Part shown: positions 8,607-11,335 of the stretch, in pieces
Layout of the letters: every line of letters starts with the position of its first letter
How positions within the stretch are numbered: the first letter of the stretch is position 1
Virus record (IMG/VR): IMGVR_UViG_3300037502_000516
Location: 1 to 41,068 of that record
Length of the DNA stretch: 41,068 nucleotides
Origin: a virus
Direction: 5' to 3' (one strand)
Notes under the pieces: generated by a model
What the model saw: the letters and a program-made list of their open reading frames with translations, nothing else
Told to the model about the DNA's origin: nothing
Database searches by the model: none
Translations under genes and position numbers: made by a program

Positions 8607-10570
8607 TTAGCCCCAGAGGCGGACGCCCATTTGCGGACGGATAACAGAGTAGCCGTACAATACATCGATGCGACAAGGCAGTCGATCGTTATTGATATCG
8701 TATTGACGAACAATACGCATCGAGATGCCGTTGTGAACCTGACGAGATGCCATATCCACGCCTTGCGGCATCAGCAGATCAGCGGTCGCAAACGTGATCG
8801 CATCTTTGTGATAGATCAGGTTTTGCGGGTACTGAGTGCTGGCGCTACCCAAGAAGGTCACCCCAGCGCTGGCTTGCGGGAACGCATCGATCGTCGCAAG
8901 CGCATGGCCAGAGGTGTACATCGCGGGGCTGACGCTGACCGAGTACGCGCCGCCAGTGGCGGTTGCGTCCGCAGTAGCAACGAACTGTTGCAGGCTGCCA
9001 GTCGACTCACGGGTCTGCGGGTTGACAGCGTAGACGTTAGCAACGGTGAACACGTCACCTTGCTTGATCGTCTGCGTGCCAGTGCCCGTGATCAAGATCG
9101 TGGTCGAGCCTTGAGCCGTCACAGCGCTGGTCACCGTGTGCGAACCCGTGCGGGTGCCGGTGGTGTGCTGCTTGATCGACTGCGACATGCTGATCTCTTC
9201 AAAGCCCAGCACACCCTCGCCCATCAGGCCATTCTTGAACTGACGGCTGATGGTGTTGGTGGGGTTGAACAGACCCTTCATGCCTTCGACGAGGCCAGCG
9301 TTCGCAGCCGGGTTGACGGTGGCATAGCGGGGAGCCATGACCGCAGCGGCTTCGTTTAGTTTCTGTTGGCCTTGCAGCAGCACCAGGCTGGTTCCGGGCG
9401 TGGTGCCAGGGGTACCGACCGACTGGTAGATGCTCTTGAAGCTGTTGGCAACGTCAGCGTCGATGCTGGAAGCAAGCTGACTGATACGAGGCTTCAACAC
9501 GCGCTCTGCGAAGTCATCGAGCTGCATGGTCAGCTCAGCGGTCGTGAAGTTCACGCCGATGTGCTTCTGGCTCGAAACAGTCAGAGTGGTGAACTGCTCG
9601 TTGTCGTCTTGAACTTGCAGCGCAGCGCCGTCGGTCACCAGTGCGCGGTCCGGCAGACGGATACGCAGCGTGGAGCCGATTTTTGCGCCTTGGACAGCAA
9701 AGCTGTCGTCGTACTGACGGTTAACCGTCCGGGTGATCACCAGGTTGTTCTCGAGGCCATGTGTTCGCCAAGGTTCGCTACGCCTTGACCGCCCTTTCGG
9801 GCTGCTGCATGTCACCATGCAGAGCAGACTATCTCTTCACCCTCTTGCGAGGGGCTGTGCGCTTCCAGCCGCTTGGCTGTACTCCCTTACGGGATAGTCG
9901 TTACACCTTCCGCTGATGAGGACAAACGCCGCCGTTTTTGTGCTTGCCCACTTGACAATTCATGCAGAGAACTTGGTATCCCGAAGGGAACTTGTTCTTG
10001 CACAGCCAGAGGTAGAACGCGGTGCCGCTACTGCGGTAAGCACCTGACTTACGTTCCACATTGCCGTTGTTGTCAATGTGATCAATCGACAAAAACATTC
10101 GCTCAGCTTCTCCGCAGCAGACGCATTTGTATCCGCCATACGCGGCAAACACTTCGTCTCTGCGCCGGTCTTGGTTACGCTTTGTCTTGGCTGCTTCAGC
10201 AGCACGGATTGCTGCTTCTTCTTCAGGACTTGCGTTTGCCAGTTTCCGGTTGCGCCATTCACGGGAGTGCTCTCGAGCTTTTTCTCGATTTGCTTCCCGC
10301 CAATCGCGCATTCGCTGGGCGAGCTTTTCTCGGTTGCGTTCCCGATAGCGAGCAGCAGCTTCGCGGTTTTGCTCGCGTTGCTTGGTTGCTGCGTCGATGT
10401 CGGGGCTTGTTTCATCTTTGGCTTGGCTCGGTGTTTTCATGTAATCATCTTACATGACGTCCACCGAATTCACACAGTTTTTCTACTAGGGTTTCCCCTA
10501 GAGGAGACCATTATTTAATCTCGAGTGCTTTCCGGGTGATCATGTCAATCGTAAGGATTGAGTTAGCCAT
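8607..10570 (-). CDS. Major coat protein, P22 gp5-like, interrupted by a group I intron
   Basis: Two exons. Exon 1 runs from ATG 10570 to about 10518 and reads MANSILTIDMITRKALEI before an in-frame TAA. Exon 2 runs from about 9756 to 8607 and starts LENNLVITRTVNRQYDDSF. Joined, they give about 400 residues with the unbroken N-terminus expected for P22-like coats (ALxxLENNLxxxxTVNRQYDD), against 430 in P22. The open frame that continues upstream of exon 2 to 9818 encodes MVTCSSPKGRSRR..., which is intron sequence and not protein. The C-terminal part includes IDVLYGYSVIRPQMGVRLW. Scaffold is encoded just upstream. The coat assembles the capsid with scaffold and portal. The splice sites are deduced from pairing and frame, not from RNA data. 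Confidence 0.85.
9757..10517 (-). ncRNA. Group I intron (IA2/td-like) in the coat gene
   Basis: About 761 nt. P1 pairs the exon end GAGAU with GUCUC in the intron and has a U-G pair at the splice site. P2 is CTAGGG-GAAA-CCCTAG (10487-10502). P3 is CTGTGTG paired with CGCACAG. P7 pairs GACTATC (9893-9899) with GATAGTC (9830-9836). Small GC hairpins fill P7.1/P7.2 (CAGCC/GGCTG), P8 is CCCTC-GCAA-GAGGG, P9 is a 7-bp stem with a GTGA loop, and P9.1 has a GAAA loop. The intron ends with G at 9757 (omega-G). Splicing gives codon ATC and frame continuity. The 3' part closely resembles my memory of the T4 td intron (…AGUCUGCUCUGCAUGGUGAC…). Confidence 0.9.
9901..10440 (-). CDS. HNH homing endonuclease encoded in the coat intron
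   Basis: A 179-residue protein. The N-terminal about 100 residues are highly charged helices with repeated NREK/REANREKAREH units, probably DNA-binding. The C-terminal HNH zinc-finger domain shows YKCVCCG (first CxxC), LSIDHIDNNGN (catalytic His region), VLCMNCQVGKHKNGG (second CxxC and final His/Asn). Enzymes of this kind cut intronless alleles and spread the intron. The TAA stop overlaps the ribozyme core just before the P7 strand, so coding and ribozyme sequences are fused. Translation from its own start would need the unspliced or excised RNA. Confidence 0.9.
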   Translation of the reverse strand: MKTPSQAKDETSPDIDAATKQREQNREAAARYRERNREKLAQRMRDWREANREKAREHSREWRNRKLANASPEEEAAIRAAEAAKTKRNQDRRRDEVFAAYGGYKCVCCGEAERMFLSIDHIDNNGNVERKSGAYRSSGTAFYLWLCKNKFPSGYQVLCMNCQVGKHKNGGVCPHQRKV

Positions 10571-10594: not shown

Positions 10595-11335
10595 TTAACG
10601 TCCATACTTCGCTTCCCACGCCTTGATCTGTCGTTGCCGCTCGGCTGCGATCCAGTCGCTCGTGCTCATTGCTTTGATGGAGCGCGGGTCTGTGGTGTCG
10701 TAAGCCGGTGCGCCAGAGGCGCGTGCTGCAACGGGTTCGATCGGCGCCGGAGCGCTAGATGGTTTTCTGGTGGGCGGACTGGCGGCCACTTTGGCCTCAA
10801 TCTTCCCGATCTCTTTGGCTTGCAAGAACGGCGATAGACGCGAGATACGATCAGCTTCTTTTGGATTGGACCCGAGATAGTACGCAATGTCGGGGCCGAT
10901 CTCTGACGCCTGAATTGTTTGAGCCATCACGGTCGAGATTTTGAGGCTTGGGTTGTAGGCGACTTGCTCGAAGTCGTCATACTTTTCCCGTGCCTGTTCT
11001 TCTTTCTCGTGGTACGACTCAACCAGTGCTGCTTGCTGGCGCTCCAGTTCCCGTTGCTGGAGAAGCTGTTCGGCTTTCTGCGCGGCCAGTGCATCGGCAT
11101 ACGCTTCGACCGACTCAAACTTATCCTGCGTCACAGGTTCTGCGGGCGCTGCGGGCGCCTTCGGACGCTCACGTTCCCAAGACCTACGCTCTCTTGCGAG
11201 ACGCTTGCCAATCAGCGCATCCACTTCTTCTTGAGTGAATGTTTTGACCGCCGGTGCTTCTACGGGTTCAGGTGCGGGCGTCGCTACCTGCTCCGGCGCG
11301 GGTGTTTCCGCTACTACTTCAGTGTTTTCTTCCAT
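10595..11335 (-). CDS. Capsid scaffolding protein
   Basis: A 246-residue acidic/charged protein. The N-terminus is Pro/Glu/Ala-rich (residues 1-30), then FTQEEVDALIGKRLARER (about 33-50), a motif typical of phage scaffolds. A long Gln/Glu helical region (AQKAEQLLQQRELERQQAAL) follows. The C-terminus is basic and Trp-containing (DWIAAERQRQIKAWEAKYG), as expected for the coat-binding helix-turn-helix. It directly precedes the coat gene. It would direct coat assembly into proheads and then leave; P22 gp8 is 303 residues. Confidence 0.85.
   Translation of the reverse strand: MEENTEVVAETPAPEQVATPAPEPVEAPAVKTFTQEEVDALIGKRLARERRSWERERPKAPAAPAEPVTQDKFESVEAYADALAAQKAEQLLQQRELERQQAALVESYHEKEEQAREKYDDFEQVAYNPSLKISTVMAQTIQASEIGPDIAYYLGSNPKEADRISRLSPFLQAKEIGKIEAKVAASPPTRKPSSAPAPIEPVAARASGAPAYDTTDPRSIKAMSTSDWIAAERQRQIKAWEAKYGR

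Follow-up and report, generated by a model that had tools for sequence, protein, structure and literature searches.

The window analysed here is the complete 41,068-bp IMG/VR record of a freshwater podovirus, which, besides a family A DNA polymerase, encodes a portal, a coat and further head proteins of P22-like type. The coat gene is split by an intron that itself carries an endonuclease gene:

10595..11335, minus strand: head scaffolding protein gene, upstream of coat (phrog_8865, E=2e-29)
10518..10570, minus strand: coat exon 1, 53 nt, MANSILTIDMITRKALE plus AT of codon 18, assigned from the sequence and from intronless relatives, where an identical N-terminus is contiguous with coat
9757..10517, minus strand: predicted group IA2 intron, 761 nt, from RF00028 and covariation (U10518 ends exon 1, omega-G = 9757)
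9901..10440, minus strand: predicted HNH homing endonuclease ORF, 179 aa, in the P6 loop (phrog_2255 E=5e-6, phrog_4234 E=1e-5)
8607..9756, minus strand: coat exon 2, LENNLVITR... to the stop codon (PF11651 P22_CoatProtein, phrog_283)
8607..9818, minus strand: mechanically called 403-aa ORF starting in P9 (ATG 9818) and running into exon 2, likely a mis-annotated coat start

A split coat gene

The coat ATG at 10570, preceded by a Shine-Dalgarno sequence (AGGAG, 10586-10582), opens MANSILTIDMITRKALEI, which runs into a TAA at 10513-10511, and the normal continuation of the protein, LENNLVITRTVNRQYDD, begins at 9755, 0.76 kb away as a preliminary description of this DNA had stated. When 10517..9757 (761 nt) is removed, GAGAT meets CCTCGAG and the frame reads A-L-E-I-L-E-N-N again. 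The junction bases given in that description, 10518 and 9756, are correct, exon 1 being 10570..10518 and exon 2 starting at 9756; the splice, however, does not follow codon 18 but lies inside it (phase 2, GAG AT/C CTC GAG, with the slash marking the junction). The spliced protein has 400 aa and fits PF11651 over its full length (138.4 bits, profile positions 1-423 of 423), as compared to 126.9 bits and positions 20-423 for exon 2 alone; likewise, phrog_283 scores 251.1 bits with the spliced protein and 234.9 bits with exon 2 alone. Splicing would thus yield the expected coat N-terminus in the expected frame. In intronless relatives the exons are joined exactly as predicted for the spliced coat, and the N-terminus encoded by exon 1 is contiguous with the rest of the protein.

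Class and structure of the ribozyme

An Rfam search of the window at the gathering threshold gave no match. RF00028 aligned to 9979-9805 with 27.7 bits (E=8e-5), below its gathering score of 50 bits because the 540-nt ORF splits the core, whereas six ORF-less copies at the same coat site pass this cut-off with 64-79.5 bits, and the covariance search proposed in the preliminary description thereby supports a group I intron. All elements listed there (P1, P2, P3, P7, P8, P9 and omega-G) are present, and P4, P5, P6, P7.1, P7.2, P9.1 and P9.2 can be placed as well. P10 is weak, with about one pair. All elements are on the minus strand:

10504..10522: P1, exon GAGAU 10522-10518 with internal guide sequence (IGS) GUCUC 10508-10504, U.G at the splice site
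10486..10501: P2, CUAGGG/CCCUAG, compensatory changes in 7/7 pairs
10471..10477: P3, CUGUGUG, with 3' strand CGCACAG 9861-9855, 100% paired, 4/7 pairs compensatory
10428..10467: P4, 10467-10462/10433-10428, enclosing P5, 99.7% paired
10438..10456: P5 hairpin, CAUGUA 10456-10451 / UACAUG 10443-10438, of a class found only with HNH genes
9827..9899: P7 to P8 region including the 3' strand of P3
9899-9895/9831-9827: P7, GACUA/UAGUC, 100% paired
9894-9891/9886-9883: P7.1, compensatory changes
9879-9875/9870-9866: P7.2, 100% paired, compensatory changes
9853-9849/9844-9840: P8, 100% paired, compensatory changes
9767..9822: P9 (9822-9816/9811-9805), P9.1 (9802-9799/9794-9791) and P9.2 (9789-9783/9773-9767), compensatory changes in all three

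The 66 proposed pairs were evaluated over 52 distinct cores, six of which lack the 3' part and were entered as gaps. They are 95.7% paired in a count in which P7.1 was misplaced, as compared to 32-42% for control structures slid by 1-3 columns, and 34 of the 66 show compensatory changes; in a recount with the correct placement P7.1 covaries fully. P1, the loop of which holds the in-frame stop, is 96.8% paired in the alignment of distinct cores. GAG occupies -5..-3 in all 48 HNH-bearing introns compared but in only 26 of 79 intronless coat genes, as the pairing of P1 requires. Each of 70 distinct introns has U before the 5' splice site and G as its last base, and in 58 of them the first in-frame stop begins at intron nt 5.

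P7.1 and P7.2 are linked by GUA in the window intron, the arrangement that defines subgroup IA2 (PMC3428280), so that the subgroup suggested earlier agrees with both sequence and covariation. The 3' core had DNA-level matches in 528 phage records, some of them DNA polymerase introns with an HNH gene. The element in the coat gene is very probably a self-splicing group IA2 intron, and it is probably functional.

Distribution of the intron and four states of one site

Scanning for the exon 1 pattern identified 84 contigs with an intron at the identical coat site and in the identical phase, most of which carry an HNH ORF; at least 80 IMG/VR contigs other than that of the window have such an intron. 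ORF-less introns are clear at six loci (L170, L180, L181, L201, L204 and L233); the five that are fully covered measure 248-258 nt and have a short P6a hairpin at the position of the ORF. The ribozymes of an HNH-bearing intron (L115) and an ORF-less one (L170) are near-identical, and as they differ in the P5-to-P6 segment this segment marks the HNH cassette. Variant 3' intron ends were observed in L114 (contig 3300047463_000059) and L111, ACGATG/C and ATAATG/C instead of CATGG/C, with the splice phase kept.

A genome scan for hosts returned one contig from a cultured strain, the remainder being largely MAG contigs of Proteobacteria, and the site was empty in 12 of the 12 contigs with a readable coat junction. 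The coat gene on a 769-kb contig of Rhizorhabdus histidinilytica UM2 (L251), a possible prophage, is 78% identical and has an empty site; this strain could supply a host for experiments.

Altogether, the coat gene occurs in four states at one site: empty, with an ORF-less intron, with an intron plus HNH gene, and with a free-standing HNH gene that lies between the scaffold gene and the ATG of an intact, intronless coat gene. The 35 loci of the last kind were gathered by similarity to the HNH gene of the window; in an independent scan, 6 of 101 intronless coat genes with enough upstream sequence have a free-standing HNH gene. The states are scattered over the coat phylogeny, with 39 or more changes between them on a tree of 150 genes, indicating frequent gain and loss. 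An ORF-less intron with an adjacent homing endonuclease gene was not found among the sampled loci. The HNH ORF within the intron, the ORF-less introns, the free-standing copies and the recoded sites described below all go beyond the preliminary description.

The HNH gene and its hairpin

The HNH assignment is based on the PHROG matches and on zinc-ribbon/DHxxNxG motifs, and C-x-CC, DH, N-x-G and C-x-x-C are invariant in 25 aligned copies. Searches of the protein against Pfam, PDB sequences and folds gave nothing significant, the top fold matches including HNH nucleases. The start codon lies within the 3' arm of P5 and the stop codon in J6/7, the first ~8 codons being P5/P4/P6 sequence and the last codons and the stop P6/J6-7 sequence, so that the terminal residues (MKTPSQ and KV) are the ribozyme core read as protein. 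In the alignment both core-encoded ends occur only in intron copies and are lacking in free-standing ones, and the conservation of the protein at its ends (10440-10400 and 9911-9901) reflects RNA constraint on the ribozyme core. Free-standing forms are nested among intron-borne ones in the HNH tree, with four changes, of which supported branches force only one; the tree gives no direction of exchange because the outgroup branch is too long for rooting.

A hairpin with the loop ATGAT and variable but paired arms (10456-10438 in the window) lies just upstream of the HNH gene at 25 of 35 free-standing loci, e.g. L131 and L118, and forms P5 at 73 of 115 intron loci with an HNH gene (counted without deduplication), as compared to 0 of 78 empty loci and 0 of 5 ORF-less introns. 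By this distribution the hairpin travels with the HNH gene; a role in translation control is a guess. We also considered whether a sequence resembling the homing site lies beside the HNH gene, as has been reported for I-TevII, and discarded the candidate: the hairpin loop ATGATTAC is similar to exon 1 at -26, yet within the gene this site does not stand out clearly as its best match.

Synonymous changes centred on the insertion site

Closely related coat genes in different states were compared around the splice site. The coat bodies of L116 (free-standing HNH) and L197/L210 (intron) are 0.1-0.2% different, with 6-7 synonymous differences within about -10..+15 of the splice site, and L020 (empty) and L097 (intron) are 0.7% different, with four changes at -9..-3. 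Between L034/L054 (empty) and L118/L056 (free-standing) there are 11 changes in -20..+9 and nearly none in the flanks, and the stretch from the HNH gene to -21 is unchanged except for the codon before the ATG.

When free-standing and empty states were compared over the whole coat gene, the most state-associated bases were -8, -6, +6 and -18. In phylogenetically independent pairs the Leu codon -2 (base -8) changes from CTN to TTR in the free state in 8.8:0 of 9 pairs, all nine going the same way (p=0.004 by sign test); for the Glu codon +2 (base +6) the change from GAG to GAA is found in 6.8:0 of 9, the best of 32 other tested codons reaching 3.5:0.3 in the same test. Read most simply, the free-standing enzyme would target the very site of the intron, with its own phage carrying an altered version of that site.

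Proposed mechanism and alternatives

What we observe directly is the anatomy and conservation of the intron, the existence of four states, how these are scattered in the coat tree, and synonymous changes focused on the insertion site; splicing, DNA cleavage and self-protection are what we infer from these observations. The ribozyme would fold co-transcriptionally, guanosine would attack after U10518, and exon 1 would then attack after omega-G 9757, giving a joined mRNA for a P22-type coat protein of 400 aa. Capsid supply may then depend on intron function, as the preliminary description proposed. In homing, the HNH enzyme, whose gene occupies the P6 loop, would cut coat genes that lack the intron, at the insertion site or close to it, and the intron would be copied in when the cut is repaired. 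The free-standing HNH enzyme would most likely target the same site, its own phage being shielded by the synonymous changes. We consider such shared-site homing of the intron-borne and free-standing HNH genes likely; site-focused synonymous changes are a prediction of shared-site homing combined with self-protection.

Two other accounts concern the coat gene itself. Its start might lie within the intron, the upstream 18-codon ORF being unrelated, since the 403-aa ORF is open and scores as a P22 coat protein. However, its 20 extra residues fall outside both coat profiles, just 35 of 65 HNH-bearing introns offer a start in frame with and joined to exon 2, and intronless relatives continue directly from the exon 1 N-terminus into coat; with the profile limits and the start count against it, we rejected this start, which is extremely improbable. 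Alternatively, the gene could be broken, i.e. a degenerate insertion, a pseudogene or an assembly chimera, as the contig is metagenomic and the case for splicing is built on sequence comparison. A broken gene is hardly compatible with an identical junction in 84 contigs, with a ribozyme that covaries and with exon 2 and the HNH frame being intact across many lineages, and we noticed no further coat gene in the window; we regard it as very improbable. Taken together, the Rfam match, the covariation, the identical position of the intron across dozens of phages and the relatives with an empty site bear out the earlier proposal that a group I intron splits the coat gene.

The homing part of the mechanism meets stronger competition. 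Splicing could be real while the HNH protein is no longer active in homing, the scatter of states being due to ordinary recombination and loss; recombination is frequent among phage genes, and the activity of the HNH protein is predicted from sequence. Yet the Cys/His/Asp motif is invariant in the 25 aligned copies, and the state-linked changes are found only at the insertion site with neighbouring sequence unchanged, which makes an inactive enzyme unlikely. A more serious objection is that the synonymous changes of free-standing alleles could be passengers of co-conversion and not protection, as the HNH gene sits ~50 nt upstream, so that donor flank must be co-inherited, and the tracts end just past the site. 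Against this stand the comparison of L034/L054 with L118/L056, where the changes begin only at -20 after an unchanged stretch from the HNH gene, and the change of the same two codons in independent lineages. Co-conversion of donor flank could explain part of the pattern, but as an explanation instead of protection it is rather doubtful. We retain shared-site homing with self-protection as the preferred reading.

How endonuclease genes and introns join is an old question, earlier argued from single phage pairs. More tentatively, one HNH gene may move repeatedly between the P6 loop and the spacer upstream of the coat gene, bringing the ATGAT hairpin with it, with each free-standing phage being protected by synonymous recoding at the splice-site codons; in the same joint reading, which as a whole we consider possible but somewhat short of an even chance, the hairpin would serve as a leader when the gene is free-standing and as P5 of the ribozyme when it is intronic. 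If this were true, the locus would preserve a natural record of how mobile introns are built and dismantled. The four states at one site among close relatives make the assembly of mobile elements testable, and near-identical coat genes in different states are ready pairs for cleavage, homing and splicing tests. Coat genes with this intron belong to a common freshwater group, and genes of this group will likely be called with a false start in the intron or with a missing N-terminus.

Other capsid introns and known systems

To our knowledge, introns in phage capsid genes have rarely been reported. We observed a second one in an unrelated podovirus (L005, MW202512.1, ~27.0-27.8 kb of the record; locus 1474-2260), where a short N-terminal ORF (MAVTSFATGDALAVKLWSKK...) is separated from a Phage_capsid_3-type coat, annotated without its N-terminus, by a group I intron that matches RF00028 with 47.5 bits (E=3e-9) and encodes an HNH protein 40% identical to ours. 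A third coat gene, a distant one of P22 type (L004, MW202674.1, locus 2249-2467), is annotated in two pieces; near residue 100 it has an insertion with group I-like P7 letters (CGACUAAG...GAUAGUC), for which Rfam gave no match at E<=0.01.

The preliminary statement that few such introns are known agrees with the literature found, which comprises mycobacteriophage LittleE, where splicing was detected by RT-PCR, and, as cited in the same paper, lactococcal phage Tuc2009 (PMC3706429). LittleE resembles the coat intron in interrupting the major capsid gene, in having an in-frame stop closely behind the 5' splice site, an exon that ends in U and an intron that ends in G, and in encoding a putative homing endonuclease (PMC3706429). 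Its splicing occurs in vivo, whereas that of the coat intron is predicted from sequence. The LittleE element is an 819-bp insertion of uncertain type, most likely group I, in one phage, and its ORF is LAGLIDADG-like and on the opposite strand (PMC3706429); the coat intron, in contrast, is of type IA2, carries an HNH gene on the sense strand, occurs in dozens of phages in a P22-type coat gene and has ORF-less and free-standing forms. We found no earlier report of the coat intron, or of four such states in one gene, in the open-access literature.

Collaborative homing was reportedly described by Bonocora and Shub in 2009 for phages PhiI/W31 and by Zeng in 2009 for cyanophage psbA. Free-standing endonucleases that target intron insertion sites are known from T7-like phages and cyanophages, where the endonuclease is combined with an ORF-less intron in DNA polymerase or psbA genes (PMC3984707, PMC10448857). 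At the coat locus, in contrast, one HNH family is found both inside the intron and beside an intact capsid gene, in a set of four states, with recoding centred on the insertion site and putative cleavage of the target.

Introns of the I-PfoP3I type, found in the T7-like DNA polymerase gene of Pf-WMP3, share the P7.1-GUA-P7.2 arrangement of IA2 and an HNH ORF that overlaps core helices (PMC3428280), and the 3' core of the coat intron is similar to such introns at the DNA level; the coat intron differs in its host gene and HNH subfamily, its ORF reaching from the P5 3' arm to J6/7. Intron endonucleases can also serve as weapons between coinfecting phages, as for PhiPA3 gp210, an HNH enzyme encoded by a group I intron within an essential phage gene, where cutting the empty gene of a rival gives a competitive edge (PMC11620839). 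There the host gene is the RNA polymerase gene of a jumbo phage and the activity is proven, whereas here it is a capsid gene and the activity is predicted. As a kind, the intron described here is already known; its value is the natural allelic series around it.
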